NCBI RefSeq assembly: GCF_003121985.1
Contig: NZ_QEWP01000006.1
Span: forward strand, 220,320 to 284,319
DNA length: 64,000 nt
Direction: 5' to 3'
Source: Marinilabilia rubra
GTDB taxonomy: Bacteria > Bacteroidota > Bacteroidia > Bacteroidales > Marinilabiliaceae
Shown here: positions 35,595 to 53,217 of the stretch, piece by piece
How positions within the stretch are numbered: the stretch's first letter is position 1
Layout: each line of letters starts with the position of its first letter
Notes under the pieces: model-generated
The model's database searches: none
What the model was told of the DNA's origin: nothing
Seen by the model: only the letters and a program-made list of their open reading frames with translations
Translations under genes and position numbers: made by a program

Positions 35595-37226
35595 CTATTC
35601 AAAAATTGAAATAAACTCAAATTTTTCACCATCAAAAAGCCCCTTATCTCCCAGTTTTAATTTTGGAATAACTAACAATGACATAAATGAAAGGGTCATA
35701 AAAGGAGCTTTCAGTTTTGCACCAAATCCTTTTGCTTTTTCTTCAAGATGGGAATATAGTTTTGCTACTTCCTCCCCTTCTTTATCGCTCATTAATCCGG
35801 CTACAGGCAAAGGTAATATTTCCTTATACTCCTGATTTGTTACAGCCAGCCCACCTTTGTTTTCCATGACGACATTAATGGCATTAACTAAATCCTCATC
35901 ATTGGTTCCTATAGCTACTACATTATGGCTATCGTGAGCAACAGAGGACGCAATGGCTCCTTTTTTCAATCCAAAGCCATTAATAAAACCAACAGATACA
36001 GGTTTATTTTGATAGCGATCTATCACCACTAATTTCAAAATATCATTTTCAGTATTGTACGTCAGATAATTTTGGTCAGAAACATCAATTTGAAAAGAAT
36101 CGGTTACCAGTTCTCCTTCGAAACATTTTATAATGGTTGCTTTTTGGGCACCTTCAGGAACCCGAACAAGAAGGTCATTTTTTACAATAAAGTGTGGCAG
36201 GAACTGATTAGCACTATATACAGAAACCCTTTCAAATAAAAGTCCCTGGTCTCTATGGTAAACTTTTTTACCGTTAATGTAAGATTCCAGCACATTAAAA
36301 TCAGCAGGATTATCAATCACTATAAAATCGGCAGGATCACTTTTTCGGAGCAAACCTACAGGTAAATTATAATGCCTTACAGGGATAAGAGAAGCAGCCT
36401 GAAGCAATTTGAAGAGATCAATTCCCTTTTTTAATCCCAACTTAATAAGCTTATCAATATGTCCTGAATGAATTAATTCATCAGGATGACTATCATCTGT
36501 ACAAAGCATCAATTGATCAGGATGCATGTCAAAAAGATCAGTTAATGCATTGAAGTTTTTTGCGGCACTTCCCTCTCTTATTTGAATTTTAATTCGATTG
36601 CTGATCTTTTCCAGAGCTTCATCCAGTTCAAAACATTCGTGATCGGTCGAAACACCTGCTGCTGCATATTTTTCCAATCCCTTACCTTTTAACCCTGGTG
36701 CATGTCCGTCAATGGGTAAATTCCTTTTTTTTGCAGCATCAAGTTTTGCCAAAACTTCTTTGTCTCCATTAATAACTCCTGGAAAATTCATCATTTCACT
36801 GAGAAAAAACACATCCTCTTTGTCCAATAAACTTTCAATTTTTCCGGAGTCTATTTCGGCTCCTGAAGATTCAAGAGGCGTAGCAGGTACACAAGAAGGA
36901 GCCCCAAAGAAGCACTTTAGGGGTGTGTTTTTAGATTCCTCAATCATATACTCAACACCTTTAACACCTAAAACATTTCCTATCTCATGAGGATCGGTTA
37001 CCACCCCTATTGTTCCACGTGGAACAACCAAACGTGAAAAATTAGACGGAACCAGCATACTACTCTCTATATGAACGTGCGAATCAATTAATCCTGGTAA
37101 AATGTAATGATTAAAGACTTTATTTATTTTTTCAATACGATCAATCCCATTTTGAGAGAAATAAATAATACCGGGAAAAATCTCTTCCTTGTGAATATCT
37201 ATGATATTCCCTTCTATCTTTTCCAT
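35595..37226 (-). CDS. ade: Adenine deaminase
   Basis: 543 residues of the amidohydrolase superfamily. It deaminates adenine to hypoxanthine for purine salvage. Metal-binding motif LIDSHVHIESSML near residue 48, the conserved VVPRGT and DPHEIGNV stretch at about 67-83, and GHAPGLKGKGLEKY. The C-terminal half (from about 370) carries the Ade-specific domain with HDSHNVVAIGTND. One 16-bp parS match (37011-37026) falls exactly on the VPRGT codons. It leads the ade-uvrC pair. Confidence 0.94.
   Translation of the reverse strand: MEKIEGNIIDIHKEEIFPGIIYFSQNGIDRIEKINKVFNHYILPGLIDSHVHIESSMLVPSNFSRLVVPRGTIGVVTDPHEIGNVLGVKGVEYMIEESKNTPLKCFFGAPSCVPATPLESSGAEIDSGKIESLLDKEDVFFLSEMMNFPGVINGDKEVLAKLDAAKKRNLPIDGHAPGLKGKGLEKYAAAGVSTDHECFELDEALEKISNRIKIQIREGSAAKNFNALTDLFDMHPDQLMLCTDDSHPDELIHSGHIDKLIKLGLKKGIDLFKLLQAASLIPVRHYNLPVGLLRKSDPADFIVIDNPADFNVLESYINGKKVYHRDQGLLFERVSVYSANQFLPHFIVKNDLLVRVPEGAQKATIIKCFEGELVTDSFQIDVSDQNYLTYNTENDILKLVVIDRYQNKPVSVGFINGFGLKKGAIASSVAHDSHNVVAIGTNDEDLVNAINVVMENKGGLAVTNQEYKEILPLPVAGLMSDKEGEEVAKLYSHLEEKAKGFGAKLKAPFMTLSFMSLLVIPKLKLGDKGLFDGEKFEFISIFE
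37011..37026. other. parS: parS-like ParB-binding site 1, inside ade
   Basis: TGTTCCACGTGGAACA is a perfect palindrome and an exact match to the consensus TGTTnCACGTGnAACA. It lies within the ade coding sequence, over the codons for V-P-R-G-T. B. subtilis parS sites also occur inside genes. The match is seen; ParB binding is inferred. Confidence 0.75.
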
Positions 37227-37575
37227 AGGATATAAAATGAATTAATGGTTCAATTCTTATTACTGCTATTCATACGAACTGTTATTAGAGGCATCATCTC
37301 TAATAATCATTAGACATATATTGCGGGAGAAAGTTAATTACGATGGCGCATCCATAAAATATAACGTCACTTTAACGGTTAGGTTGAAACTGCTTTTAAA
37401 GATGACTTATTAAATAATGAACCGGATGCTTAAATTTGACAAGTGCATAATATATTAAAAAAGGGCTTAAAAAGCATTTTAACTAAAAAAACTCAAAATC
37501 TCCACAGGATTCCAAATAGGTTATAAATGCTTTATAAAACCCCTCAAATTTATCGTATATGTTCCACGTGGAACA
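37227..37575. other. Intergenic region between mnmG and ade
   Basis: 349 bp, AT-rich. It holds a perfect 9-bp hairpin TTATTAGAG-GCATCAT-CTCTAATAA (37282-37306) without a T-run, and a parS-like site at the mnmG end. No coding frame is credible. The hairpin could be part of the ade leader or a weak terminator of mnmG. Confidence 0.5.
37560..37575. other. parS: parS-like ParB-binding site 2, abutting the mnmG stop
   Basis: TGTTCCACGTGGAACA, identical to site 1, directly at the 3' end of mnmG and 534 bp from the copy in ade. Exact match to the ParB-binding consensus. Confidence 0.8.
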
Positions 37576-39453
37576 TTACCTTCCCATAAGCACTAAAAGT
37601 ACATTAATATCACTTGGAGAAACACCGCTAATCCTACTGGCTTGCCCAATGGTTTCAGGATCTATCTTAGATAGTTTTTGTCTGGCTTCAGTACTAATAG
37701 ATTTAATACTATTATAATCAAACTTCCCTTTGATCTTAAGATTCTCCAGCCTCTTTAACTTTTTGGCCATGTTTTTTTCCCTATTAATATACCCTTCATA
37801 CTTAATAGAAATTTCCACACCATCTAAAATTTCAAGTCTCCTATCGTTAGGTAATTCTTCACACAATTCTTTAAAAGCAGAAACACTCTCAACTAATTCC
37901 GGAAGATTAATTTGAGGACGTACAACCAAATCTCTAATTTTTCCTTTTTGCTTGAGTCCGGAGGTACCTTTCATTTTTAACCAATCATTAATTTCATCCG
38001 GAGAAATTCGATAATCTTCCAAAAACCTAAAGATCTTATCTCTCCATTCCTTCTTTTCATTATAAAGTTGAAAACGGTAATCATCTACCAATCCAATTTC
38101 CCTTCCCATTGAAGTCAAACGAATATCGGCATCATCCTGCCTTAATAAAATACGATATTCAGCTCTTGACGTAAACATTCGATAAGGTTCATCGACACCC
38201 TTTGTTACCAAATCATCAATTAACACTCCAATGTAAGCTTCATCCCTGGAAAGAATAAACTCATCCGCACCTTTTAAATGTAGAGCTGCATTGATACCTG
38301 CTACCAATCCTTGGGCCGCTGCTTCTTCATATCCTGTAGTACCATTAATTTGACCGGCAAAATACAAACCTTTTACTTTTTTGGTTTCAAGAGTGTGATA
38401 TAATTGTGTAGGATCGAAAAAATCATATTCAATAGCATAACCGGGCCTAAATATGGAAGCTTTTTCTAATCCAGGTATGGACTTCAAGGCAGCCAATTGT
38501 GTTTCTAAAGGCAGAGAACTACTAAATCCATTCAAGTAAAATTCAATGGTCTCCTCTCCTTCCGGTTCCAAATGTAATTGATGTTCATCTTTCCCTTGAA
38601 AGGTTACAATTTTTGTTTCAATACTGGGACAATATCTGGGCCCAATGCTTTGAATGGTTCCATCGTACATAGGGCTTTGATTAAGCCCTTCCTTAATGCT
38701 TTCATGCACATTAGGATTGGTATAGGTAAGATAACAACTCCTTTGTTTGAGTTTCTTATTACTAACAGGTAAAAAGGAAAATTTATAAAAATCAGTTTCA
38801 CCAGGCTGTTCTTTTACTTTACTAAAATCAACGGTTCTTCCATCAATTCGAACAGGGGTTCCGGTTTTCATTCTCCCGGTTCTAAATCCCCTTTCAAGAA
38901 ATTTATTGGATAAACCTTTGGATGACGGTTCTGAAATCCTCCCTCCCTCCATTTGAACTTTTCCAATATGCATTAATCCATTCAGAAAAGTACCATTGGT
39001 AAGAATCACTTTTTTACAGGTAAAATCAACATTTTGCGCCGTGGAAACAATAAAGGAATCCTCTTTTGAAAAATCAACATCCACTACCGTATCCTGCCAA
39101 AAAAACAAATTATCAGTTTTTTCCAATTGCTTTCTCCATTCAGAGCTAAAAACCATCCTATCGCATTGCGATCTGGGACTCCACATAGCAGGACCTTTAG
39201 ATCGGTTTAGCATACGAAACTGAATGGAAGAGGCATCAGTAACCAATCCCATATATCCTCCAAGTGCATCAATTTCCCGAACAATTTGTCCTTTAGCAAT
39301 ACCTCCAACTGCGGGATTACAGCTCATTTGGGCAACTTTGTTCAAATCCATTGTGATCAACAAAGTTTTTGCTCCAAGTTTTGCTGCTGCAGAGCTTGCT
39401 TCACAACCAGCGTGACCACCTCCTACTACAATAATATCGTAATTGAAATCCAT
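37576..39453 (-). CDS. mnmG: tRNA uridine-5-carboxymethylaminomethyl modification enzyme
   Basis: 625 residues (GidA). With MnmE it installs the carboxymethylaminomethyl group at U34 of certain tRNAs, using FAD and folate. The FAD-binding [10 protein letters not shown] is at 12-21, the MnmG signature [22 protein letters not shown] near 46-67 and GYEEAAAQG near 370. Length is normal. In many bacteria mnmG lies near the replication origin, which agrees with the adjacent parS site. Two candidate -7 boxes lie upstream. Confidence 0.96.
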
Positions 39454-39478
39454 AAGAACTCAAAAATAAAATAAACCG

Positions 39479-39486
39479 CAAAGTTA
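39479..39486 (-). promoter_or_regulatory. Possible -7 box of mnmG
   Basis: On the minus strand TAACTTTG fits TAnnTTTG, 25 nt before the mnmG start codon. A second fit, TATTTTTG, lies closer to the gene. Tentative. Confidence 0.3.
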
Positions 39487-39495
39487 ACAGTTTTG

Positions 39496-39921
39496 CTAAA
39501 AATTTGTTTCGAAAAACAATAAGGAAAGATTTTCTGCCTTCCGCATTTGTTCCTTTTCTTCTTCGGTTGCGTCCTTGTATCCTATTAAATGAAGAATACC
39601 ATGAATAATGACACGCAATAATTCCTGATGAAAGGAAACATTGTATCGCTCGGCATTAAGACTAACGGTAGGAATACTTATAATAACGTCACCCGAAATT
39701 TTACGGCGGGTAGAATAATCAAAAGTAATAATGTCTGTAGTGTAATCGTGATTAAGATATTCGCGGTTAGTTTTTAAAATATACTCGTCAGAACAAAAAA
39801 CATAGTGAATATCACCACACCTATATCCCTCATTTTCAATAACTTCACAAATCCAACTATCTATCTTATCCTTATCTGGTACATTATAGGAAACATCGTA
39901 TGTAGAAAAGGAAATAGCCAC
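39496..39921 (-). CDS. ybeY: Endoribonuclease YbeY (rRNA maturation)
   Basis: 141 residues. It processes the 16S rRNA 3' end and helps ribosome quality control. The zinc motif reads HGILHLIGYKD: the first two histidines are present, but the third ligand, His in E. coli (GYDH), is Asp here; as I recall this is usual in Bacteroidota. No ATG fits; the frame starts with GTG at 39921, 5 nt after the RsbW-like stop, so translational coupling is likely. It is followed 42 bp later by mnmG. Confidence 0.9.
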   Translation of the reverse strand: MAISFSTYDVSYNVPDKDKIDSWICEVIENEGYRCGDIHYVFCSDEYILKTNREYLNHDYTTDIITFDYSTRRKISGDVIISIPTVSLNAERYNVSFHQELLRVIIHGILHLIGYKDATEEEKEQMRKAENLSLLFFETNF

Positions 39922-39926
39922 GTTAA

Positions 39927-40313
39927 TTAAGTTAAATTGAAAACAATTTTAACTTCATTTCCTTTATCATTGAATTCAACATCATCGGCTAAATGTTTCA
40001 TAAGAAAAATTCCTCGTCCATGAGTCTTTTCAATATTTTCCGGAGTGGTAGGATCAGGTAAACTTTTATAATCAAAGCCAGGACCATTATCAGAGATGAC
40101 AAACTGGATTTCTTTGTCGGAAATTTCATATTCTACCACCACATCCTTATCGCTCTCCAATTTATTACCATGTACAATGGCATTATTTACACCTTCCACA
40201 ACAGCAAGTAATAACTTGCCATATACATCACTATGAATCTCGTACTTGGCGGAAATATCATCTATCAACCTTTCTACAAGGTTAATGTTCTTAATTTCAG
40301 ATTTGAAAACCAT
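39927..40313 (-). CDS. RsbW-like anti-sigma factor/serine kinase ATPase
   Basis: 128 residues from the ATG at 40313; the frame opens earlier with GTG codons. GHKL ATPase motifs are clear: N box EGVNNAIVHGN, G1 box SDNGPGFDY, and G2 box HGRGIFLMKHL. Proteins like this phosphorylate anti-sigma-factor antagonists in partner-switching modules. No antagonist (STAS) or SpoIIE-type phosphatase gene is adjacent, so the partner must be elsewhere. It is paired with ybeY, with a 5-nt gap. Confidence 0.88.
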   Translation of the reverse strand: MVFKSEIKNINLVERLIDDISAKYEIHSDVYGKLLLAVVEGVNNAIVHGNKLESDKDVVVEYEISDKEIQFVISDNGPGFDYKSLPDPTTPENIEKTHGRGIFLMKHLADDVEFNDKGNEVKIVFNLT

Positions 40314-40431
40314 TTTATTCACTACCACAAATTTTGAATCTGGCCCAATTAAAAATTATATCGCTAAATTACACTATTTTATACTTACATCCTTGAAAAG
40401 GGTTTCTAAATTAGTCATATTTTTTTCATAA

Positions 40432-41595
40432 TTAACGTAAAAGCCATTGTTCAGGATCAAGTTTGGTATTCTCTTCCCATATTTCGAAATGTAAAATCTC
40501 TTGCATTTCACTCTCATCGTGATAAACTTTACCAATAACCTGCCCGGAAGCAACAATATCGCCTTTTGTGACGAAAACATCAACTAAATTACCATAAACA
40601 GTTAAATATTTACCATGTCTTACAATAACAGCCTTATTCAAACCAGGTATGGCAGCAACAGTGGAAACTTTTCCGGGATGCACACAAAATACATTTGATT
40701 TCCCGGAAACCTGTATATCAATACCATTATTTTTAATGGTTACATTTTTCAACACTGCATGCCGATGCTCTCCAAATGGGTTAATAATGACACCCTTTTC
40801 AACAGGCCAGGTTAATTTTCCCCTTTGATCAGAAAATTCTGAAGATTCTGCAGCATTAATGTTGACATCCTTTTCAGAAGCAATTAATTCCTTAATTCTG
40901 TTTTCAAGTTCAGCAGCAGCTGCTTGCTTTTCCTTCAAACTTTTTTGAAGCCATTGTTGTTCAGTTTTTAAACGCTGAACCAAGCGGTTCTTTCTGTTTT
41001 TATTGTTTTGCAGCCTGCTAATTTCATTTTCAATGTCTCCCAATACACTTTCCTTTTCAGATTTTTGCTGTTGGATTTCCTTAACAAGCGCTTGCACTTT
41101 GGATTGGGATTCAATTAAAATTTCACCTTGACGCTGTCGATACCGACTATATTCCTTAAACAACCTGTATTTTAAATAGGCCTTGCTAAAATCACCGGAA
41201 CTAAATAAAAACATAAGTTGATTCAGTTCACCTTTCCTTTTGTAAGAATCACGAACGAGGCTGGCATATTCTTTTTTAATCCTATAAATATCGCTCTCCA
41301 GGTCATTGACCAACATTTGATTTACTTCTATTTGATTATCAAGTTGATCAATTTCTTTTTTAAAGTTATTGATAAGTTTTACCCTGGATTGAATTTCCCG
41401 GTCAATCAAATTCAACTCTCTAAGATTATCTGACCTGTTTTCTTTCTTCTCTTCTATTAACCGGGATGTCTCGGATATCTCATTAAGAAGGCTTTCCCGC
41501 TCATCCCGAAGCTTTTCAATACTTTGCCCCGAAACATTAAGGCAAAGAAAAATACCATACCCTAAAACAATAAATTTAGCGATATATTTTCTCAT
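40432..41595 (-). CDS. EnvC-like M23/LytM protein, probably non-catalytic
   Basis: 387 residues from the ATG at 41595. A signal peptide (to about CLNVSGQ) is followed by a long coiled coil (about 25-245) and a C-terminal LytM domain (about 270-387). In the LytM domain the usual zinc ligands are changed: the first HxGxD is KNNGIDI, with Asn for His, and the usual YxHL is YGNL, without His. So it is likely an EnvC-type amidase activator regulated by FtsEX rather than a peptidase; ftsX is in this window. The start overlaps the DUF4292 gene by 20 bp. Confidence 0.88.
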   Translation of the reverse strand: MRKYIAKFIVLGYGIFLCLNVSGQSIEKLRDERESLLNEISETSRLIEEKKENRSDNLRELNLIDREIQSRVKLINNFKKEIDQLDNQIEVNQMLVNDLESDIYRIKKEYASLVRDSYKRKGELNQLMFLFSSGDFSKAYLKYRLFKEYSRYRQRQGEILIESQSKVQALVKEIQQQKSEKESVLGDIENEISRLQNNKNRKNRLVQRLKTEQQWLQKSLKEKQAAAAELENRIKELIASEKDVNINAAESSEFSDQRGKLTWPVEKGVIINPFGEHRHAVLKNVTIKNNGIDIQVSGKSNVFCVHPGKVSTVAAIPGLNKAVIVRHGKYLTVYGNLVDVFVTKGDIVASGQVIGKVYHDESEMQEILHFEIWEENTKLDPEQWLLR

Positions 41596-42412
41596 ACTTA
41601 TTGGGTATTTTAAAAGAAATACCATTATCGTCATTAAATCTTATGTTGCTGTGCGAAATGGTGACGGTTACCTGATTTTGTTGCTCATCGTTTCCAACAA
41701 TTTTAATGGATTCAGGAAAGTATCCAACAATATCCTGCTTAATATATTCGCCATACTTAATGTCCAAATTAATGGATTTTTCCGACAAGGCTAGTTTTGT
41801 CCTGCGCATTAAAAAAAGTGAAGGATCAATCCATATACGCTGATAAACAACATCTTCAAATTGCCTCTTTGAAACTAATTTCTGATATTGCCTTTCCTTC
41901 ATTGAGGATAAAAAATACTGATTTTCATCAATAGAGAAATGGTAATCTTCAAGAGAAATACCTTTCGAAAGATGATAACTAAAAGCCCGGTCAAGCAAAA
42001 TATTCTGAAGCATATCGAAATTCAAATGTGCCCCAAATTTATTATACACCTCATTATAATTACTATAAATAACAACCCGGTTCATCCGGTCAAGTATTCT
42101 TATCCGGTTATCTTCAAATGAAATTCGGGCTAATTCTATCCCCATAGGTGCAAGAACACTAACTCTGATAAAACTATCAGGATAAATAAAAATATTTGAC
42201 CTGAAAGTCTGAATACCTTTTTCAGAATCCATTTTAATACTGGATCTCCGGAAAAAAACATTTTTAATGTTGCTGTTATTTGCCGAAATATTTTCTAATA
42301 CCTCAGCTTGTTTTAACCGTTCAAATTCATTGTCTTGAAAAACAAATTTCCCGGTTTTGCAACCAGAAAAAATCATCAGCAAAAGGACAACAAAAACACT
42401 ATTCCTCCCCAT
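41576..42412 (-). CDS. DUF4292 lipoprotein
   Basis: 278 residues from the ATG at 42412 (MGRNSVFVV), which puts the lipobox MIFSGC at a normal distance; the longer frame to 42463 would bury it. The Cys is followed by KTGKFV. The body is beta-rich, with the DUF4292 pattern RVSVLAPMGIELARISF and LDRMNRVVIYSNYNEVYNKFG, related in fold to the LolA/LolB lipoprotein carriers. Function is not established. It overlaps the genes on both sides by 14-20 bp and belongs to the flippase-dut-TPR-DUF4292-EnvC operon. Confidence 0.85.
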   Translation of the reverse strand: MGRNSVFVVLLLMIFSGCKTGKFVFQDNEFERLKQAEVLENISANNSNIKNVFFRRSSIKMDSEKGIQTFRSNIFIYPDSFIRVSVLAPMGIELARISFEDNRIRILDRMNRVVIYSNYNEVYNKFGAHLNFDMLQNILLDRAFSYHLSKGISLEDYHFSIDENQYFLSSMKERQYQKLVSKRQFEDVVYQRIWIDPSLFLMRRTKLALSEKSINLDIKYGEYIKQDIVGYFPESIKIVGNDEQQNQVTVTISHSNIRFNDDNGISFKIPNKYEKIYR

Positions 42413-44162
42413 CAATAAATTCTTTCTTTTCAATTTTTTCTTTAATAAGTTCAGAATGATCACCTATTTCAATGGCTTTCTTCCATTTTTCAACTGCACC
42501 TTCAACATCTCCGTTTTTAAATAATATATCACCATAATGTTCAATAACAACACCCGATGGTTCTTCTAAATTGTCTACAGCTCGTTCAATAATAAATTTG
42601 GCCTCACTATATCGGCCTTTTTTAAATAAAACCCAGGCATAAGTATCAAGATAAGTAGCATTACCGGGTTCCAATTCAACAGTGCGTGCACTCATATTTT
42701 CGGCTTTATCAAGATTCTCTCCTCTCAAAGCCAGGTAATAACTATAATTATTAAGCACAATAACATCATTTTCGTCTATTTCAAGTGCTTTATCGTAATG
42801 GGAAAAACATTTTTCGATATTACCCAGTGAGTGATAAATATCTCCCAAATAGGCATGAAAACGTCCCTTTAAACCTGGGTTATCTTCAACGTTTTCTAGA
42901 CCTTTCTCCATTGTAGTGGCAGCCCCTTCTAATTTATCCATTTGGAACATAGAAACACCTTGAAAAAGTCTAAAAAGCGGTATTTCTGGAAAAAATTTAA
43001 CAGCTTCGGAGGATTTCTCATAAAGCAAATCATTCTCCTGAATGGAGGAAATCAAAAAGAGATATTCCTGCCAGATTTCAGATTGAGAAGCATCAATATT
43101 TAAAGCCTCTTCAAAAAGATCTTTGGCTTCTTCTTTTTTATTTATTGAGGTAAGAAAATTACCGTAAGCCCCGTAAGTTTTAGCTTCATAAGCATGTGTA
43201 TCAATCAAAATCTCAAAAATTTTTTCAATATCTTTTTGTTTTAGGGGGTTATTTTCCTTCTTCCTTTGAGCTACAAAAGGCATAAATCGTCTAAACTTAC
43301 TATCAAATTCAATATTTTTAGACCCAAAACCTTCAAATAATTCACTTTTAAACCGGGCAGTATCCCCCATCTGCATATAATAATTGGCCATGGAAAAATG
43401 GACTTTTCCATTGTCCTTATCTTTATCCAGCGCCTTTGTATATTGTTCTTTAGCTTTTCTATTATCTCCTTGTTCGAGATAAAAATCACCTAAATAAATG
43501 TGGTAATCACTGTTACCTGGAAATTTTTCTATTAATTTTAAAAGCTCATTTTCAGCTTTTTTAATCTCATCATTTTTTAAATAAATCTGATATTTTTCAA
43601 AAGATAATCCTTCATTAATTCCAACGAGGTTTTCAATTATATTAAGGTTGACCATGGCTTTTTCATACAAACCATTTTGAACCTGAACCTGGGCTACAAA
43701 ATAATAATCATCAACCTCGGGATCATTTAATTCAATTAATCTTTCGGCAATTTTTACAGCTTCCTCTCCTTTGTCATTGTTTTGATAGATCCTTGAAAGT
43801 AAAGTTACGTAATATCTATTTCCGGGACTGTATTTTACAGCCCTATTCATTAGCTTTTCAGCTTCTTCTATATTCTCATTACCGAGTAATAACCTTGATA
43901 GCTCATATGCACAGGAAGAACAAGTTGAATCAATCTTAAGAGCTTCAGCAAAATACATAAAACTCTTATTGGGTTCATTAATTGCTTTATACCTTATCCC
44001 CTCGTAGAAATAATAATTAAATTTTCGTTCTTGTTCATCATTAAGCTGAACATCAACATTGGAAAAATCTAAATTATCGACTTTACCCTCCACCCTACTT
44101 TTTTTAATAACACTACAAGAACTTAAAACAACTATTACCAGTATGTAAAAAACGTTTTTCAT
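42399..44162 (-). CDS. TPR-repeat lipoprotein
   Basis: 587 residues with a lipobox VVLSSC (Cys about residue 16) and about a dozen tetratricopeptide repeats through nearly the whole length (e.g. NYYMQMGD, DIYHSLGNIEKCFSHYDKAL, YLALRGENLDKAENM). It is probably a periplasm-facing scaffold at the outer membrane. Its place between dut and DUF4292/EnvC is a conserved Bacteroidota arrangement, which points to envelope assembly, but the partner is unknown. Confidence 0.88.
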   Translation of the reverse strand: MKNVFYILVIVVLSSCSVIKKSRVEGKVDNLDFSNVDVQLNDEQERKFNYYFYEGIRYKAINEPNKSFMYFAEALKIDSTCSSCAYELSRLLLGNENIEEAEKLMNRAVKYSPGNRYYVTLLSRIYQNNDKGEEAVKIAERLIELNDPEVDDYYFVAQVQVQNGLYEKAMVNLNIIENLVGINEGLSFEKYQIYLKNDEIKKAENELLKLIEKFPGNSDYHIYLGDFYLEQGDNRKAKEQYTKALDKDKDNGKVHFSMANYYMQMGDTARFKSELFEGFGSKNIEFDSKFRRFMPFVAQRKKENNPLKQKDIEKIFEILIDTHAYEAKTYGAYGNFLTSINKKEEAKDLFEEALNIDASQSEIWQEYLFLISSIQENDLLYEKSSEAVKFFPEIPLFRLFQGVSMFQMDKLEGAATTMEKGLENVEDNPGLKGRFHAYLGDIYHSLGNIEKCFSHYDKALEIDENDVIVLNNYSYYLALRGENLDKAENMSARTVELEPGNATYLDTYAWVLFKKGRYSEAKFIIERAVDNLEEPSGVVIEHYGDILFKNGDVEGAVEKWKKAIEIGDHSELIKEKIEKKEFIDGEE

Positions 44163-44197
44163 TAAATTCAGCTTATTTTCTCTACGTATTTAAAAAG

Positions 44198-44632
44198 TTA
44201 GACGCCGGTATGTCCAAAACCGCCTTCACCCCTGATGGTTTCAGTCAATTCTTCTACTGTATCCCATTCAAAAGTTTCATAACGATGAATAACCATCTGA
44301 CAAATCCTGTCTCCATTATTGATTTCAAATTCATCATTAGACAAATTGACCAAAATAACTTTTATCTCTCCCCGGTAGTCACTATCGATGGTGCCAGGGG
44401 AATTAAGAACTGTAATTCCACTTTTGGCAGCCAAACCGCTTCTGGGGCGTATTTGTGCCTCAGTACCCTTAGGTAATTCAATAAATAAACCTGTTGGAAC
44501 CATAGCTCTTTCAAGTGGTTTGAGACGAACAGATTGTTTTAAAAAAGCTCTTAAATCCACACCGGCAGACCCTTCTGTTGCAAATTCAGGGACTTCGTTG
44601 TTACTCCGGTTGACTAATTTTATCTTTATCAT
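44198..44632 (-). CDS. dut: dUTP diphosphatase
   Basis: 144 residues of the trimeric dUTPase family. It hydrolyses dUTP to dUMP and keeps uracil out of DNA. The five motifs are recognisable: [42 protein letters not shown] and the C-terminal [10 protein letters not shown]. Its start lies inside the end of the flippase gene (32-bp overlap), so the two are likely translationally coupled. Confidence 0.96.
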
Positions 44633-46070
44633 ACCTCTTAATTACAAAAAATGAACCAATAAATAAAGCAAATATAACTGCTTTAAAAAGATAGGAAAAA
44701 AATTGTTCTTCTATGTTGATCTCTTTTGCTGCAAAAAAAACAATTGCAGCCAAAACAAAATATATTAAATACTTCCTGGGCTGATAAGGAACCGGATAAT
44801 GCTTATGACCGATAATCCATGAAACAACCATCATAACAAAATATCCAACTAAAAGTGCAATAGCTGAACCCAAAACTCCTATTTCAGGAACAAGAAGGAT
44901 ATTTAAAATGACAGTAAGTCCTGCACCAATGGTTCCGAAAATAGCTCCGATCCAGGTTTTATCAGTTAACTTATACCAAAGAGACAAATTGAAATAAATA
45001 CCATAAAACAGCAAAGCTAAAAGAATAACAGGAATAATGTTATTACCAGCTATATATTCCTGGGTTAGAACGATATTAATAACGTCAAGAAAGAGCGTAA
45101 CGCCCAAAAAAATTATTAAACCAAAAAAGATAAAATAATCCATCACCAAAGCATAACTCTTCATACCCTTTTCCTTGTTTTTAAAGAAAAAAGGTTCGAA
45201 AGCAAATCGAAACGATTGGGTAAATAAACTCATCAATACACCAATCTTAAAATTAGCACCATAAACAGCTAATTCACTAAAACCACTGTTTTTTAATAAA
45301 GCAGGAAGTAGAATTTTATCGATATTTTGAGTAATCATTCCTGTAATCCCAACAAACAACACAGGCAATGAATACACCATAATGGGTTTTAAAATAGAAA
45401 AATCTACGTGTGAACCTATGTGAAAGATCTGAGGTATTAATAGCAAAAAGGTGATAACACTGCTTAAGGCATTACTAAGAAATACATAAAAAACACCATT
45501 AAACTTTTGGTAAATAAGCACAAAATCTCCTTCAAGAATGTTTTGTTTTATCAGATAAGGAATTAGTAACAGAAACAGTAAATTAAAAAAGATGTTGCTC
45601 CCTATGTTCACAAGTTTAATAATACCAAATTTAACGGGACGGTTTTTAAGCCTGAGCCTTGCAAAAGGAAGAGCAATAAAAGAATCAATACCAAGGATTA
45701 AAAAAACCAATAAAATAGCCAGAGCATGATCACCTCCATAAAATAAATCACTTACGGTACCATTTAGGAAAAATCCAAGTAAAACGAATGTGCCACTGGT
45801 AATTGCAAGTAACGAAATCAGGGTTTTAAAAATTGAATTCTCCTGATAACCTTTTCCTGAAAACCTAAAGAAACCGGTTTCAAGACCATAGGTCAATACA
45901 ACAAGTAAAACAGAAATAACAGCATAAAAGTTAACAACAACACCGTACTCATAAGTAGTTAAAGTCCTGATATAAAATGGCATCAAAAACCAGTTCAGCA
46001 ATCTCCCGAGCATGGTAGATGCGCCATAGATCATGGTTTCTCCGGCAAGTTTTTTAAGACTTAGAGACAT
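44601..46070 (-). CDS. Polysaccharide flippase/lipid transporter, Wzx/MATE-like
   Basis: 489 residues with 13-14 predicted membrane helices. The N-terminal [21 protein letters not shown] and the alternating helices match the oligosaccharide flippase (Wzx/MVF) superfamily. It should move undecaprenyl-linked sugars or a related lipid across the inner membrane. No glycosyltransferase cluster surrounds it; it heads the dut-TPR-DUF4292-EnvC group, as often in Bacteroidota, so a general envelope role is possible. Confidence 0.87.
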
Positions 46071-46091
46071 TATATTTAGTTAAAAGGATAA

Positions 46092-47111
46092 TTAAAAAAG
46101 CGAAGCCTGACTTGAACCGGGTTCTCTTCCAAAATGCCGGTAAGCCATTGGGGTAATCATTCTGCCACGAGGGGTCCTTTTCATAAAGCCCTCTTTTATT
46201 AAAAAAGGTTCATAAACTTCTTCAATGGTACCTGAATCTTCCCCAATAGCAGTAGCAATGGTGGTAAGTCCTACAGGGCCTCCATCAAATTTATCCATTA
46301 CTGTAAACAATATCTTATGGTCCATTTGATCGAGACCGTATTGATCAATATTAAGCGCTTCAAGACTCATTTTGGTAATGGGCATATCAATTGTGCCATC
46401 ACCTTTTACCAAAGCAAAATCCCTTACTCTCCGTAGCAATGCATTGGCGATACGCGGTGTCCCCCTGCTCCTTCTTGAAATCTCAGCAGCAGCATCTGAT
46501 AAAATGGGCACATCCAAAATATCGGAGGACCGTTTAACAATCCCTTTTAATACATCCACATCATAGTATTCAAGGTGACAATTAATTCCAAAACGTGCGC
46601 GCAGAGGACTGGTGAGTAATCCACTACGTGTGGTAGCACCAATTAAAGTAAATGGATTAAGCTCAATTTGAATACTTTTAGCTCCGGGACCTTTGTCAAT
46701 AACGATATCGATACGGAAATCCTCCATAGCTGAGTATAAATATTCCTCAACAATTGGACTAAGCCGGTGGATCTCATCGATAAAAAGGACATCATTTGGT
46801 TCAAGGGAGGTAAGAATTCCGGCTAAATCTCCGGGTTTATCAAGAACAGGTCCGCTGGTTAATTTAAACCCAACTCCTAATTCATGAGAAATAATATTTG
46901 AAAGAGTAGTTTTCCCTAACCCCGGTGGGCCGTGAAGCAAAACATGATCAAGCGCATCTCCTCTCATAAGGGCAGCCTGAACAAATATTTCAAGGTTTTC
47001 AACAACTTTAAACTGCCCACGGAAATCATTAAACGAAAGCGGTCGTAATTTTTGTTCTACATCAGGTTCACGAGCCGGTTCATCCCCGGCATTCCGAATA
47101 TCAAAATCCAT
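46092..47111 (-). CDS. ruvB: Holliday junction helicase subunit RuvB
   Basis: 339 residues. The AAA+ motor drives branch migration with RuvA. Walker [10 protein letters not shown], Walker B FIDEIHRL, sensor GATTRSGLL and the C-terminal winged helix TPRGRMIT are all present. It lies 21 bp upstream of the flippase gene and 9 bp downstream of the receiver gene, so it probably belongs to the same long transcript. ruvA and ruvC are not nearby. Confidence 0.97.
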
Positions 47112-47120
47112 CTCACTTTT

Positions 47121-47510
47121 TTAAACCGAAGTCATTTCAAAACCAAAACTGCTGATAATTTCCTGAAACTTCTCAATGTCAAAAGGTTTGGCCATATATT
47201 CATCCATCCCCTCACTCAAACACTTATCCCTGTCGGCATCATAGGTATTGGCAGTAAGTCCGATAATAATGTTTTTATCTGCTCTGTCCCTTTCCCGATC
47301 CCTGATACTTCGGGTGGCTTCAAGACCATCCATTACTGGCATCATAAGATCCATAAGAATAATATCGTAACTTCTGGAATCTAATTTATCTAAGGCTTCC
47401 TTTCCGTTATTGGCAACATCGATGTTGAATCCATACTTCGATAAAGTAAGAAATATGAGTTTCTGATTCAAAACATTATCCTCTACAAGTAAAAGCGTTA
47501 TCCCATCCAT
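47121..47510 (-). CDS. Stand-alone response regulator receiver
   Basis: 129 residues, only a CheY-type receiver domain. Acidic pocket LLVEDN, phosphorylation Asp about residue 55 in IILMDLMMPVMDG, Thr in IGLTANTYD and Lys in MAKPFD are intact. It has no output domain and no adjacent kinase. It is probably a phosphate shuttle for a hybrid histidine kinase encoded elsewhere. It is 9 bp upstream of ruvB. Confidence 0.93.
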   Translation of the reverse strand: MDGITLLLVEDNVLNQKLIFLTLSKYGFNIDVANNGKEALDKLDSRSYDIILMDLMMPVMDGLEATRSIRDRERDRADKNIIIGLTANTYDADRDKCLSEGMDEYMAKPFDIEKFQEIISSFGFEMTSV

Positions 47511-47750
47511 TTAAAAGCATTTTATACCCGGTAAATCCGGTAAAGCGGATTGAAATAAATGATTAAATCCGAATACATAACACAGAAATAAAAACAACTC
47601 CTGCAAATATTCTTAAACGCTAAAGTTAAAAAAATATAGCCGAAAAAAGGGTGTGATTACAAAAAACAAGGCTCAGGTATAAAAAGTTTTTTGCATCAAA
47701 AAAATTCAAGTGCCAATTTAACAGTAAGATAAAAACATTTCTAAAAAAAT

Positions 47751-48749
47751 TTATCTATTCAATAACCCTTCCGACAGTTCAAACATCTTTTCAATAGGTT
47801 TAATGGCCTCTTTTCTAATATTTTCAGCAACCTGAACTTCTGGGTATTCATACTTTAGAGTCAAATAAATTTTTCTAAGGGTGTTGAGTCGCATAAATTC
47901 ACAATCATTGCAGCCACAGGTAGAGTCGGAGGGAGGTGCCGGAATAAAAGCCTTATCCGGAGAAGCCTTTTTCATTTGATGGATTACCCCTGATTCCGTA
48001 GCTACAATAAACTGATCGGCATCAGCCGTTTGAGTATGTTTCAATAAACTAGCTGTACTTCCTATAAAGTCAGCAATAGTAAGTACAGGTTTTTTACATT
48101 CGGGATGGGCAATAATTTCGGCATCCGGATAATCCTTTTTCAGATCTATGATTTTCTCAACTGAAAATTTTTCATGAACATGACAGGCACCATCCCATAT
48201 CACCATTTCACGTCCGGAAATACTTTGAAGATAATTACCAAGATTCCTGTCAGGGCCAAAAATAATTTTTTTGTCTTTTGGAATACTGTTGATAATTTTC
48301 ACTGCATTGGTTGAGGTAACAACAATATCAGATAACGCTTTTACATCGGCAGTAGTATTAACATAGGTCACCACTATATGGTCCGGATACCGCCTTATAA
48401 AAGCCTTAAAATCTTCAGCGGGGCAACTATCCGCCAGGGAGCATCCGGCGTTAAAATCGGGCACTAAAACCTTTTTTTGAGGGGATAAAATCTTTGCGGT
48501 TTCTCCCATAAATAAAACACCGGCCAGCAAAATAATATCCGCATCAGTTTTGGAAGCTTCCCAAGCCAGGGCTAAACTATCTCCTACAAAGTCTGCAATG
48601 TCCTGAATTTCATTATCCTGATAATAATGTGCCATCAAAAGAGCATTCTTCTCTTTTTTCAGTTCATTAATAGCTTCAATCAAATCCACATCTACAGGAA
48701 TCGTTTCATCAACGAATCCTTTTTTCTTCCATTCACTACTAATATTCAT
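47751..48749 (-). CDS. nadA: Quinolinate synthase
   Basis: 332 residues. It condenses iminoaspartate and dihydroxyacetone phosphate to quinolinate for NAD synthesis, using a [4Fe-4S] cluster. Cluster cysteines fit the family: NAGCSLADSC, then Cys in PECKKP, and STCGCNDCEFM near residue 290. AHYYQDNEIQDIADFVGDSL is the substrate-binding start. nadB and nadC are not in the window. It is the last minus-strand gene before the strand switch at about 49 kb. Confidence 0.96.
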   Translation of the reverse strand: MNISSEWKKKGFVDETIPVDVDLIEAINELKKEKNALLMAHYYQDNEIQDIADFVGDSLALAWEASKTDADIILLAGVLFMGETAKILSPQKKVLVPDFNAGCSLADSCPAEDFKAFIRRYPDHIVVTYVNTTADVKALSDIVVTSTNAVKIINSIPKDKKIIFGPDRNLGNYLQSISGREMVIWDGACHVHEKFSVEKIIDLKKDYPDAEIIAHPECKKPVLTIADFIGSTASLLKHTQTADADQFIVATESGVIHQMKKASPDKAFIPAPPSDSTCGCNDCEFMRLNTLRKIYLTLKYEYPEVQVAENIRKEAIKPIEKMFELSEGLLNR

Positions 48750-49178
48750 ATTATAAAAGATTTATAAAAAGTATGATGGTGTTATAAGCCTGTTGAAACT
48801 GTTGGTAAATTTTCTGAACTTTTGTTGTTTCATATTGCTATGAACATTTGGCAGTACAGTTATCAACCGGTTATAAGACCCATTAAAAAAATAAAAATCA
48901 AAGTATTATCTGATGTTTTCAACAGTTGTTAACCCGGTACAAATTTAAAAATTAATCAGATCTAACAGTTCATTACTGATTTGAAAACTGTGAAAAAGTT
49001 AATCAGAAAAAAGATGATTAATTTTTGGTATGGACTTTTTCATTCAGGGTATGTGATATATTTTATAAAATCCAAGAGAAATTTTTTAAAAGTAATTACC
49101 AAAAACGAACCAGTTATTAACATGTTATCAAACGCAAATATAAGCTCCAGAATTTATTATATTTGAACCAAAAAATAT
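48750..49178. other. AT-rich divergent gap at the strand switch; candidate oriC region
   Basis: 429 bp between divergent nadA and rpiB. It is AT-rich and holds repeated near-DnaA-box strings such as TTATCAACC (near 48860), TTTTCAACA (near 48915) and TTATCAAAC (near 49122), plus two ggttataag/gttaatcag type repeats. None is the full TTATCCACA box. Gene orientation switches here and parS sites lie 11-12 kb left and 3 kb right. An ordinary divergent promoter region is the alternative. Confidence 0.3.
49158..49165 (+). promoter_or_regulatory. Possible -7 box of rpiB
   Basis: TATATTTG fits TAnnTTTG and lies 13 nt before the rpiB start, implying a very short leader. No clear -33 box was seen. Confidence 0.35.
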
Positions 49179-49619
49179 ATGCTTTTCAATAAAATAGGTA
49201 TAAGTAGCGACCATGCCGGTTTCAACATTAAAACGTTTTTGAAAGGTGAATTGTTGAAAAAAGGCATTGAAGTGATTGATTTTGGAACAGATTCGGATGA
49301 TAGTACCGATTATCCTGATTATGCCCATCCGCTTGCCAAGGCAGTTGAAGAGGGTGAGTGCGAGGTTGGTATAGCTATTTGTGGCAGTGGCAATGGCATT
49401 AGTATGACTGTTAACAAGCACCAGGGAATCCGCTCAGCTGTATGCTGGAATACGGAAATTGCTTATTTGGCAAGGCTTCATAATAATGCAAATATATGTG
49501 CATTACCCGGACGTTTTATGAAACAGCAGGAAGCTATGAAAATTGTCACTGCTTTTTTTACCACAGGTTTTGAAGGTGGCCGACACAAAAGGAGGATAGA
49601 TAAAATTCCAGTTAAATAA
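49179..49619 (+). CDS. rpiB: Ribose 5-phosphate isomerase B
   Basis: 146 residues of the RpiB/LacAB family. It interconverts ribose 5-phosphate and ribulose 5-phosphate in the pentose phosphate pathway. SSDHAGFNIK near residue 8, DFGTDSDDSTDYPDYA near 38, the active-site Cys in AICGSGNGIS near residue 70, and NTEIAYLARLHNNANICALPG match the family. It is the first plus-strand gene to the right of the strand switch. Confidence 0.95.
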   Translation: MLFNKIGISSDHAGFNIKTFLKGELLKKGIEVIDFGTDSDDSTDYPDYAHPLAKAVEEGECEVGIAICGSGNGISMTVNKHQGIRSAVCWNTEIAYLARLHNNANICALPGRFMKQQEAMKIVTAFFTTGFEGGRHKRRIDKIPVK

Positions 49620-49696
49620 CATTTAACCCTCTTTAAACATGTCCCTTACGGAATTTTGTAAAATAAACAGGAAGCTCTTATTCCAAAACCAATTGA

Positions 49697-51085
49697 ATGT
49701 CTGATAGAACAGAGAATAGATTTTTGAAAGATGCTGAAAGAGTAAGCTTTGATTATAAACACAGAGCTACCATCAGCTTTAATATTTCAAAATATGATTT
49801 GGCTGTAGAGAAGGGACATAAACGTTATCAAAATATTAAATTGGCCAAAGATAAGGCTGCTGTATTAAAAAGAAATGTTCTTAAGCATTTGTCTGAATTC
49901 CTATTGGAATTTGAAAATAATGCAATCGCCAATGGAGCTGAAGTTGAGTGGGCCGAAAATGGGGAAGAAGCCCTTAATATTATTTCCCGAATAATTAGAG
50001 AAACCGGAGCAGATACGCTGGTTAAAAGCAAATCAATGACAACCGAAGAGATTGATGTTAACCTACGTATGAAAGAAACCGGGGTAAAGTCAATTGAAAC
50101 CGATTTGGGTGAATTTATTGTTCAGGAGGCTGGTGAAAAACCTTACCACATTGTTACGCCTGCCATGCACAAATCCCGAAAGGATATTGCCGATCTTTTT
50201 AATAAAAAATTTGGTACCCCCATCGATGCTACTCCTGAATATCTTACCAAATACGTTCGAAATAAATTAAGAGAATCTTTCAAAAGCGCTAAGGTAGGAT
50301 TGACAGGAGCGAATTTTTTGTTGGCCAGGGAAGGTGCTATTGCCTTGACAGAGAATGAAGGAAATGGTATGCTATCCTTTTCTTTACCAAAGGTTCACAT
50401 TGTTTTGGCCGGTATTGAAAAGATCTTACCCTCCTACCATGATTTGGATTTAATGTGGCCTTTATTGGCTGCACACGGAACAGGACAGAGAGTTACTGTG
50501 TATAATTCTGTTATTTTTGGACCGCGAAAATCAGATGAAAAAGATGGACCTGAAAGGATGGTTGTTATTTTACTTGACAATGGAAGATCAACTCTTTACA
50601 ATGAAGGCGATCATTCTGAAGCATTGGCATGCATCAGATGTGGAGCTTGTTTAAATGCTTGTCCGATCTATAAAAATATCGGCGGGTATACCTACAATTC
50701 TGTCTACAGTGGTCCCATAGGATCTGTGATCACTCCGCATTTGAGAGGATTGAAGGAGTATCAGCATTTGAGCTTTGCCAGCTCTTTGTGCGGTAAATGT
50801 GCTGAAGTATGTCCTGTGAAAATTCCCTTGCCTGATTTATTGTTGAAAAACCGTAAAAAAGCTGTTGATAAAGGGTTGAGACCTGTTGCGGAAAAATTGG
50901 TAATGAGGGGGATAGGCAATGGTCTAAAATCACGTCATTTAATGGATATCGGAGGAGGAAATTTTAAAAATATAATGAGTAACTTAGCAGGAATTCATAA
51001 TTTGTTAGGGGACAAGAGGTTGTTTCCCAAATTTCCATCGACCTCTTTTAGTAAACAATGGAAAAATAAACGATCCAATTCATAA
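49697..51085 (+). CDS. LutB-like LUD domain iron-sulfur protein
   Basis: 462 residues: an LUD domain (about 70-300) followed by two [4Fe-4S] ferredoxin-type motifs, CIRCGACLNACP at about 313-324 and CGKCAEVCP at about 363-371, as in LutB of the lactate utilisation complex LutABC. LutB carries electrons from L-lactate oxidation toward the quinone pool. No lutA or lutC gene is adjacent; instead an Rrf2 regulator follows after 5 nt, so it could be part of a split operon or have another role. Confidence 0.88.
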   Translation: MSDRTENRFLKDAERVSFDYKHRATISFNISKYDLAVEKGHKRYQNIKLAKDKAAVLKRNVLKHLSEFLLEFENNAIANGAEVEWAENGEEALNIISRIIRETGADTLVKSKSMTTEEIDVNLRMKETGVKSIETDLGEFIVQEAGEKPYHIVTPAMHKSRKDIADLFNKKFGTPIDATPEYLTKYVRNKLRESFKSAKVGLTGANFLLAREGAIALTENEGNGMLSFSLPKVHIVLAGIEKILPSYHDLDLMWPLLAAHGTGQRVTVYNSVIFGPRKSDEKDGPERMVVILLDNGRSTLYNEGDHSEALACIRCGACLNACPIYKNIGGYTYNSVYSGPIGSVITPHLRGLKEYQHLSFASSLCGKCAEVCPVKIPLPDLLLKNRKKAVDKGLRPVAEKLVMRGIGNGLKSRHLMDIGGGNFKNIMSNLAGIHNLLGDKRLFPKFPSTSFSKQWKNKRSNS

Positions 51086-51090
51086 ATATT

Positions 51091-51537
51091 ATGCTATCAA
51101 CAACTTGTAAATATGCTGTTCGTGCTATCATTTTTATTGGTCTTAAGGGCAGTGAAGAAAGTCGGGTAAATGCCCGTATTATCGCCAGGGAATTAGGAAT
51201 CCCTATGCAGTTTCTCAGCAAAATACTTCAAATATTTGTAAGGAAAGACCTTTTGAGAAGTTTTAAAGGACCTACCGGCGGGTTTTATCTGGCCCGCAAT
51301 GCGGCAGATATTACTTTGTTAGATATTGTGGAAATAATAGATGGTCCAGGTGTTTTTGAAACCTGTCTTATTGGTAACGGAAGTTGCAAGGGATCAGCCG
51401 ACAAAAAAGAAAGATGCCCGGTTCATGACCGTTACAGCAAGGTGAGGAAGGAAGTTATGGACTACTTCAGCAGTGAAACAGTGGGAGATATCATTGAGCG
51501 AATGGGTCACGACGAAAATATTTTGTTGAAATTGTAA
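51091..51537 (+). CDS. Rrf2-family regulator with a three-cysteine cluster site
   Basis: 148 residues. A winged helix (about 1-75; CKYAVRAIIFIGL, IPMQFLSKILQIFVRKDLLRS) is followed by a C-x6-C-x9-C cysteine set (TCLIGNGSCKG ... RCPVHD), the position where IscR and NsrR bind an iron-sulfur cluster. It probably senses iron-sulfur, redox or NO status and may control the preceding lutB-like gene, with which it forms an operon (5-nt gap). Its end overlaps the convergent VanZ gene by 31 bp. Confidence 0.9.
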   Translation: MLSTTCKYAVRAIIFIGLKGSEESRVNARIIARELGIPMQFLSKILQIFVRKDLLRSFKGPTGGFYLARNAADITLLDIVEIIDGPGVFETCLIGNGSCKGSADKKERCPVHDRYSKVRKEVMDYFSSETVGDIIERMGHDENILLKL

Positions 51538-51920
51538 TATCTTTTCAACAAAGAAAAGGCAATATATGCGATGATAACTCCAAATGTATTGGCTCCAAAA
51601 TCTATTATGTCTTTTTCTCTGCCGGCAATTAAGGGTTGCACAATTTCAATTATAGCCCCGGTTATTACAATCCAGATTGTGTAAACCCATTTTAATTTCT
51701 TTGTTTCAGACTTTACCCTGAAGTACGCAGTTCTCTCTATTAAATAAATTAAAGTTAAGAATCCGTACATGCCAAAATGAACCAATTTATCAGAGTGAGG
51801 AAAATCTAAAAACCATGGTGTGTTAAAATCCTTACTGGTCTTAAGGCTTAAAAACAATATTGTTGCGAGTGTTATTATTGTAAATTTGTAGTTTATAGCT
51901 AGTTGTGTTAATTTTTTCAT
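51507..51920 (-). CDS. VanZ-like membrane protein
   Basis: 137 residues with four membrane helices. SDKLVHFGMYGFLTLIYLI and EIVQPLIAGREKDIIDFGANTFGVIIAY match the VanZ-like family, which has no firmly known function outside the glycopeptide-resistance context. It is a lone minus-strand gene among plus-strand neighbours and ends inside the Rrf2 gene. Confidence 0.85.
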   Translation of the reverse strand: MKKLTQLAINYKFTIITLATILFLSLKTSKDFNTPWFLDFPHSDKLVHFGMYGFLTLIYLIERTAYFRVKSETKKLKWVYTIWIVITGAIIEIVQPLIAGREKDIIDFGANTFGVIIAYIAFSLLKRYYNFNKIFSS

Positions 51921-51976
51921 GTTGACAAAGTTGTTAATAACCGGTTGATTACTGTTGATAACCTTTTGACTTTGAA

Positions 51977-51992
51977 TGTTTCACGTGGAACA
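51977..51992. other. parS: parS-like ParB-binding site 3, upstream of hemW
   Basis: TGTTTCACGTGGAACA fits the consensus TGTTnCACGTGnAACA, with one asymmetric n position. It lies in the gap between VanZ and hemW, about 14.4 kb from site 2, preceded by TGTTGATAACC, which contains the near-DnaA-box TTATCAACA on the other strand. Confidence 0.78.
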
Positions 51993-52092
51993 TTTTCTAG
52001 TAATGGCGGGGCTTCCAAGATTTTTTTGATCAAAATGCCAATTAAAATGTTTCCTCTTGATAACAGAATGCAAATATAATTCGGAAAACCAT

Positions 52093-53217
52093 ATGGCTGG
52101 CATTTATTTACATGTTCCGTTTTGCAAATCGCGATGTCATTATTGCGATTTTTTCAAAAGTACAAAGCTTGAATACAGAGTGCAATATTTGGAAAATCTT
52201 TCCAGTGAAATTGTTGATAGAAAGGATTTTTTTTTAGAAAAAAACACCAAAATTGAGACCATTTATTTTGGAGGCGGTACTCCAAGTTTGTTTTCTTTAG
52301 ATCAATTATTCCATCTAATAAAGCTTTTATATAGTCGTTATTCCGTTTCTGATAATGCCGAAATAACGATTGAAGTAAATCCGGATGATTTGAATCGTGA
52401 ATATTTGGAGGGATTAAAAACGATTGGTGTTAACCGGTTGAGTATAGGAATCCAAAGTTTCAGGGATGAAGATCTGAAAATGATGGGACGAAGACATAAT
52501 GCCCGGCAAAGCTTTCAGGTATTGGAACAGGTTTTTGATGAGGGATTCCAAAATGTGGGTATTGATCTGATTTATGGTTTACCCTGGAGTACTGCTGAGG
52601 ATTGGCTTGAAAATATTGAAATTGTAAAAGATTATCCTTTGAAACATATTTCGGCGTATCATCTGACTATTGAACCGGGAACTAAATTCGGGAAAGAAAA
52701 GCTTGCTAAAAAACTTCTGGAAATAGAGGAGAGTGAAAGCGAAAAACTGTTTTGGCAAATCCATGACAGGTTTAAGCAATTGGGGTTTGAACATTATGAG
52801 ATTTCAAACTTTTGCAAAGATGGGTTCTATTCCCGTCACAATACTTCTTACTGGAACGAAATTCCTTATTTAGGACTGGGGCCCGGAGCCCATTCTTTCG
52901 ATGGCGATAAACGGTATTGGAACAAACCGGACCTGCACCAATACATCAGCAAAGGATATCAGCCCGGATATTCTTATGAAATATTGAGTGCTCAGGATCG
53001 TTTTAATGAAAAGCTTATGCTTGGCTTAAGAACCGGCCGGGGAATTTGTAAGGAAGAGATGAAAGTCCGTTTTAATGAGTATTTCAAAGATGTAGAAAAA
53101 CAGGTGAATATGTGGATCAATAGAGAATTTCTCAAATTTGAAAACGGACACATTCGGGCTACACGTAAGGGATGGTTTGTCATTGACGGTATTATTGAAG
53201 ATTTGTTTATTGTTTAA
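52093..53217 (+). CDS. hemW: HemW-like radical SAM protein
   Basis: 374 residues from the ATG at 52093 (MAGIYLHVPFC); the frame opens 12 codons earlier with TTG, which does not fit the family start. The cluster motif is CKSRCHYCDFF (C-x3-C-x2-C) and GGGTPSLF follows; GIQSFRDEDLKMMGRRH is the HemN/HemW signature. HemW is a heme chaperone rather than a true coproporphyrinogen oxidase, so that is the better call. It is followed after 3 nt by the rhodanese gene. Confidence 0.92.
   Translation: MAGIYLHVPFCKSRCHYCDFFKSTKLEYRVQYLENLSSEIVDRKDFFLEKNTKIETIYFGGGTPSLFSLDQLFHLIKLLYSRYSVSDNAEITIEVNPDDLNREYLEGLKTIGVNRLSIGIQSFRDEDLKMMGRRHNARQSFQVLEQVFDEGFQNVGIDLIYGLPWSTAEDWLENIEIVKDYPLKHISAYHLTIEPGTKFGKEKLAKKLLEIEESESEKLFWQIHDRFKQLGFEHYEISNFCKDGFYSRHNTSYWNEIPYLGLGPGAHSFDGDKRYWNKPDLHQYISKGYQPGYSYEILSAQDRFNEKLMLGLRTGRGICKEEMKVRFNEYFKDVEKQVNMWINREFLKFENGHIRATRKGWFVIDGIIEDLFIV

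Follow-up and report, generated by a model that had tools for sequence, protein, structure and literature searches.

Can a chromosome-partition site be maintained within the codons of an enzyme, and does the enzyme then bear its mark? This question is raised by a stretch of 64,000 nucleotides from Marinilabilia rubra (contig NZ_QEWP01000006.1, positions 220,320 to 284,319; hereafter the window), which forms the right end of contig C56 in genome G000 of our set. Three copies of a parS-like palindrome, the kind of site bound by the partition protein ParB, had been noted in it, one of them inside the adenine deaminase gene ade. We consider it very probable that the three copies are chromosomal parS sites, as predicted, for the ParB encoded in this genome, grouped around a likely replication origin, and that the copy in ade is held in place by selection on the DNA.

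Predicted parS sites of the window and their ParB

Scanning the draft genome (5,377,742 bases in 59 contigs) for TGTTNCACGTGNAACA, we found three exact copies, all inside the window. Their coordinates were correct in the preliminary description, and none of the three contains a mismatch. The sites and the genes beside them are as follows.

35595..37226, minus strand: ade, adenine deaminase, 543 amino acids, host of the intragenic parS copy (open reading frame; NCBIfam TIGR01178, 609.4 bits, cut-off 472.5)
37011..37026, no strand: parS copy inside ade (exact TGTTCCACGTGGAACA)
37560..37575, no strand: parS copy abutting the mnmG stop codon at 37576-37578 (exact match)
37576..39453, minus strand: mnmG (gidA) (open reading frame; NCBIfam TIGR00136, 811.6 bits)
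51977..51992, no strand: parS copy in the vanZ/hemW gap, upstream of hemW (exact TGTTTCACGTGGAACA)
52093..53217, plus strand: hemW, start codon uncertain, as the listed open reading frame opens at 52057 (NCBIfam TIGR00539, 285.9 bits)

All three copies fall within 14,982 bp surrounding the GC-skew minimum. Measured from the middle of the nadA/rpiB gap, the likely origin described below, their midpoints lie 11.9 and 11.4 kb to the left and 3.0 kb to the right. Chance does not account for them: only 0.02 exact copies would be expected per genome from the composition of the window alone, and in 100 dinucleotide shuffles of the window, three or more matches never occurred, even when up to two mismatches were allowed (mean 0.17, largest 2). 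Furthermore, the draft genome contains no copy with a single mismatch. The 17 matches with two mismatches look like background, since a reversed, non-complemented control pattern gives 13 matches at up to two mismatches and all 17 are located on contigs other than that of the window. Rather than being scattered evenly over the chromosome, exact copies are thus confined to this region. Two of the sites had been called non-coding, which held: neither the mnmG nor the hemW copy overlaps an open reading frame of at least 80 amino acids. Searches of the window with Rfam and for tRNA genes returned no matches.

The genome contains one ParB_N match, a protein of 297 amino acids (C1:162886) encoded on a contig other than that of the parS sites. 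It carries ParB_N, HTH_ParB and ParB_C domains, scores 178.4 bits against TIGR00180 (cut-off 58.45), and adjoins a ParA/MinD-like ATPase, for which all NCBIfam matches, to ParA/MinD models, are below cut-off. Its residues Arg161 and Gly189 align with positions that are Arg and Gly in solved ParB chains but Gln and Arg in those of Noc; by our own count, with a constant offset of 12, they would correspond to residues 173 and 201 of the Caulobacter protein. According to PMC7383237, these two positions decide between specificity for parS and for the Noc-binding site (NBS). An NBS identity was rejected on the basis of these residues and of the score against the Noc model TIGR04285 (252.5 bits, below the cut-off of 315). 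Judged by its domains and residues, the protein is probably a ParB of the chromosomal type with parS-type specificity.

Exact parS copies are present in 45 of the 61 genomes searched, our own included. In the family, the gene order uvrC-ade-mnmG-...-ruvB-nadA/rpiB-...-hemW is shared, and parS occupies three places in it: behind mnmG, within ade, and ahead of hemW. Among 28 family loci chosen by their genes, 25 have a site with at most one mismatch no more than 24 bases from the mnmG stop. For the other families of this order, 34 loci were chosen likewise, and 32 of them have parS within 300 bases of this stop, nine directly at it. Similarly, parS (at most one mismatch) precedes hemW in all 11 gene-chosen family loci and in 19 of 20 that were chosen by pattern. 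Given these recurring positions, we regard the copies as ordinary parS sites. The spacing between site and mnmG stop is zero in 16 of the 28 family loci, as it is at 37560-37578 of the window, an arrangement for which we have no explanation.

Eight members of the genus or family lack an exact parS. One-mismatch matches occur in four of the eight, and the control pattern also matches in four of eight; in two of the four genomes with one-mismatch matches (G025 and G034), the sites are 13-14 kb apart. In family genomes without exact sites, we also observed copies in which the outermost base alone is changed, such as CGTTTCACGTGAAACA (G034:C3, G025:C13, G008:C7), a hint that parS in this family may be least constrained at its outer base pair.

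The parS copy in the codons of ade

The ade copy extends from the third base of codon 67 through codon 72 and covers V68-P-R-G-T72. This peptide had been described as conserved in adenine deaminases, so that the site might partly reflect protein constraint. We compared 212 ade genes: 56 from the family (all matches), 88 from other families of the order, and 68 from other members of the class (of 81 non-family matches). The 88 were drawn from 163 non-family matches and comprise the 26 best-scoring, 60 taken at about every second match, and those of G042 and G047, which first entered the set through the parS pattern. A homologue search, in which the 120 closest proteins were listed, was not used for the residue counts.

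The exact 14-bp core GTTNCACGTGNAAC is present at codons 68-72 in 44 of the 212 genes, 43 of which are among the 56 of the family and one elsewhere in the order. Core carriers have Arg at residue 70 because the CGT codon of the core encodes it, and this link taken alone is circular. The informative genes are the 168 without an exact core: 133 have His70 and only two have Arg70, both of these with decayed cores (two core mismatches in G022, one in L295). Likewise, residue 70 is His in 110 of the 120 ade genes with no mnmG or uvrC in the same stretch, and V-x-H-G-T is the usual form of the motif beyond the family. Adenine deaminases thus do not, as proposed earlier, conserve V-P-R-G-T. Conversely, 43 of the 44 family genes with Arg70 have the core, while the four core codons would, given V-P-R-G, be expected jointly in only 0.8% according to the codon usage of these genes.

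As the 43 genes of our first codon count had been chosen for carrying the core, that count was circular, and we repeated it on a clade of 48 rows (43 with the core) picked on a tree that was built without the motif columns. In this clade, codons 68-71 have an entropy of 0.15-0.16 bits, whereas the median of 114 conserved degenerate columns is 1.76; they are among the five least variable of these columns, equalled only by Ser220. Next follows codon 67, the last base of which is parS position 1 (0.44 bits). The remaining eight family ade genes lie outside the clade and lack the core. Contrary to the suggestion of protein constraint, this conservation points to a DNA site that constrains the peptide, and selection on DNA best explains the ade parS.

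Scanning the genome contigs for the core together with the downstream DPHE codons yielded 68 matches, 67 of them ade, and 65 of these 67 have mnmG or uvrC in the stretch. The encoded peptide is V-P-R-G-T in 38 and V-S-R-G-T in 29. The one difference between them falls on the free N of parS; the pattern prescribes the remainder. The one-step neighbor TGTTCCACATGGAACA, a single transition away from parS, occurs with His in three genomes, G010, G018 and G422. Two of the pattern matches have unexpected record titles: L220, a contig of 3.2 kb titled as a metagenome-assembled genome of Erysipelotrichaceae, carries a Bacteroidales-like ade and is probably mis-binned, and L261, titled Corallococcus, has no ade match and is probably due to chance.

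In an AlphaFold2 model of the enzyme (30 sequences, mean pLDDT 92.5), residue 70 ends helix 60-70, immediately before strand 72-77, and His50 and His52, to which we ascribe a presumed metal-binding role, are at the end of strand 46-51. The active sites of such barrels lie at the opposite ends of the strands, and in the model residue 70 should be at the far end of the barrel. A change from His to Arg is likely to be tolerable here, because residue 70 ends a helix before strand 72-77 and the active site is at the other strand ends.

The following sequence of events would accommodate these observations. ParB would bind each parS, close as a clamp dependent on cytidine triphosphate (CTP), and slide away from the site, and ParA would then separate the newly copied origins. 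In ade, an ancestral codon run for V-P-H-G-T (GTT CCA CAT GGA ACA) would have been one A-to-G change short of parS; that change would have created the site and at the same time turned His70 into Arg. Thereafter the core would have been kept at the DNA level, while the outermost base and the free N position (Pro or Ser) drifted. The coding parS thus most likely put Arg where the enzyme usually has His.

The likely replication origin

The preliminary description had placed the window in the origin domain of the chromosome, and our analysis agrees. The cumulative GC skew reaches its minimum at 48747, both in the window and over the entire 284-kb contig, between the parS sites, at a pair of divergent genes and close to DnaA-box-like words.

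47751..48749, minus strand: nadA, left border of the likely origin (open reading frame; named from its translation; same place in relatives)
48750..49178, no strand: likely replication origin (oriC), the gap between divergent nadA (minus) and rpiB (plus) (skew minimum at its left edge; enriched words)
49179..49619, plus strand: rpiB-like gene, right border of the likely origin (open reading frame; named from its translation; same place in many relatives)
51921..51961, minus strand: three DnaA-box-like words, TTATCAACA, TTATTAACA and TTGTCAAC, beside the hemW parS (word search)

The nadA/rpiB gap, which measures 425-699 bp over 28 family genomes including our own, is the likely replication origin, as judged from skew, gene arrangement and words. 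Its most enriched 8-mer is TATTAACA, present in 24 of 28 gaps, where random stretches drawn from these loci would give 3.9. Words of the form TTAT[CT][ACT]ACA number 46 in the 28 gaps, against 5.0 in shuffles. They are also frequent next to the hemW parS, where the adjacent 150 bp of 31 family loci contain 53 (shuffles, 1.9), with at least one word in 28 of the 31; past the mnmG site, no clear enrichment was detected in 200 bp from each of 25 loci (three words; shuffle mean 1.0, highest 5). The DnaA box TTATCCACA itself has no match in the nadA/rpiB gap at up to one mismatch, the enriched words being only variants picked after inspection.

The DnaA-box-like words are denser beside the hemW parS (positions 51921-51992 of the window, 31 family loci) than in the nadA/rpiB gap. 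The cluster on the hemW side possibly indicates a two-part origin with parS in one of the parts. A more far-reaching proposal would combine two statements: that the centromere rewrote the enzyme in origin-linked ade genes of Bacteroidales, fixing four codons and replacing His70 with Arg at a site that arose from a run one mutation away, and that the hemW parS and the conserved cluster of DnaA-box-like words form one 200-bp initiation and loading element of a two-part origin. We put forward this combination tentatively, as we find it slightly easier to doubt than to accept.

The dnaA gene is on another contig, C34, which is consistent with a caution in PMC10197239 that the origin is not always found with dnaA.

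Two further features of this region were observed. CAAAGATA / TATCTTTG occurs in 21 of the 28 family nadA/rpiB gaps, against 1.1 expected, and resembles what we take to be the Bacteroidota -7 promoter element, as expected in a divergent gap. The G+C content is approximately 0.45 at the left end of the window and mostly 0.33-0.39 in the half that contains the likely origin (1-33000 compared with 33000-64000).

Alternative explanations and known systems

Several observations weigh against the interpretation of the three copies as parS sites around an origin, with a DNA-level constraint on ade. Regarding the origin, the class of DnaA-box words was picked after inspecting these very gaps, so that its enrichment is partly circular, and in this draft genome the skew was traced on one contig, of which 15 kb lie beyond the minimum on the right. 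Three of the 28 gene-chosen family loci (L111, L121 and L170) have no mnmG site. Within ade, parS position 16 varies: at codon 72, the 43 core carriers have ACA (21), ACG (18), ACC (two) or ACT (two), and as the last base is not kept, many relatives have a one-mismatch site. The core is dispensable, since 13 of the 56 family ade genes lack it in exact form. Arg occupies the aligned position in the adenine deaminase of Agrobacterium (3NQB), and is therefore tolerated there and needs no parS, and G022 retains Arg with a decayed core. Moreover, the His carriers G010, G018 and G422 may be reversions rather than precursors. Finally, one clade of all core carriers in the tested set, together with their decayed kin, was not rejected by the approximately unbiased (AU) test (p 0.127).

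In trees of ade, family core carriers fall into the 48-row clade and the V-S-R-G-T group into a clade of 25 rows (24 with the core), with three further placements; a FastTree placement gives 10 changes of the ade site and a 65-row tree gives 12. For the FastTree placement, rows L093, L224, L249 and L285 were excluded because of their shortness, one in four class rows was retained, and the pattern matches included were the V-S-R-G-T ones plus L265 and L276 only. The free search for the 65-row tree was shallow, as trees in which the groups were held together reached a higher likelihood. A single clade of the family and the V-S-R-G-T group was likewise not rejected (AU test, p 0.918). Several independent gains of the site are not claimed, as the tests reject neither single-clade topology; what we claim is the maintenance of the ade site and not the number of its origins.

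The enzyme might simply need V-P-R-G-T, in which case the ade copy would be a by-product and only the two non-coding sites would work. The codons do spell this peptide exactly, Gly71 is identical in all 56 family genes, and the Agrobacterium enzyme also has Arg. However, His is the usual residue where ade stands apart from mnmG and uvrC, the core accompanies family Arg far more often than codon usage would allow, and codons 68-71 are near-invariant in a clade that was chosen without them; we therefore consider this explanation improbable.

Less probable still is that the palindrome, near-perfect and of a kind bound by many dimeric regulators, serves another DNA-binding protein, such as a CACGTG-type regulator or a nucleoid-occlusion protein. 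In PMC10197239, the parS sites of 12 gut bacteria, Bacteroides among them, were located with such a consensus at up to two mismatches, which gave one to 10 sites each. In addition, the ParB of this genome has parS-type residues and falls below the Noc cut-off, and the exact sites are at the origin only. The sites could also have been left behind by an integrated plasmid, or another mobile element, that brought its own partition system, given that ParABS is used by plasmids as well and that one relative (G032) has an eight-site array, partly in repeated units. We give this the least credence, as the neighbors of the sites are housekeeping genes whose order is shared throughout the family, and the only ParB_N match of the genome is on another contig.

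As predicted parS sites of a chromosomal ParABS, the three copies look ordinary. They resemble those of Bacillus (Spo0J) and Caulobacter (ParB) in their 16-bp consensus, low copy number and position near the origin, and in a ParB that is encoded beside a ParA-like ATPase; in contrast to these systems, ParAB is here on another contig (C1), and the places at mnmG, ade and hemW represent a lineage-wide layout. The Noc/NBS nucleoid-occlusion system also pairs a ParB-family protein with a 16-bp palindrome, but the protein encoded here has the Arg and Gly of parS-type ParB. A coding parS that appears to be kept at the DNA level goes beyond the typical system. Intragenic parS sites exist in other bacteria and likewise lie within protein-coding genes; here, the ade site covers a position where His is usual and is accompanied by Arg, and we traced it over 212 ade genes. 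We found no earlier report of parS inside adenine deaminase, in coding sequence or at gidA in the literature accessible to us, which is poor in subscription journals.

The sites locate the likely origin for a lineage in which chromosome biology has, to our knowledge, received little study. The ade copy would be a natural case in which a chromosome function exerted at the DNA level constrains, and probably changes, the sequence of an enzyme; seen from the protein alone, Arg70 would pass for enzyme biology. Relatives with the site, without it, and with its one-step neighbor exist for comparison, and the strict retention of only the inner 14 bp in ade amounts to a testable statement on what ParB needs.

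Two relatives have additional sites near ade or mnmG. In G029 (L081, G029:C22), a second exact parS lies at 17096-17111, between mnmG and uvrC, although this genome has no ade match; we searched for a remnant of ade around this site and recognized none. In G032, eight exact copies spaced approximately 100-130 bp apart, partly in repeated units, occupy positions 3764-4932 of locus L088 (G032:C67), just upstream of ade, which itself contains a copy, and thus represent a local amplification of parS on a 17-kb contig.

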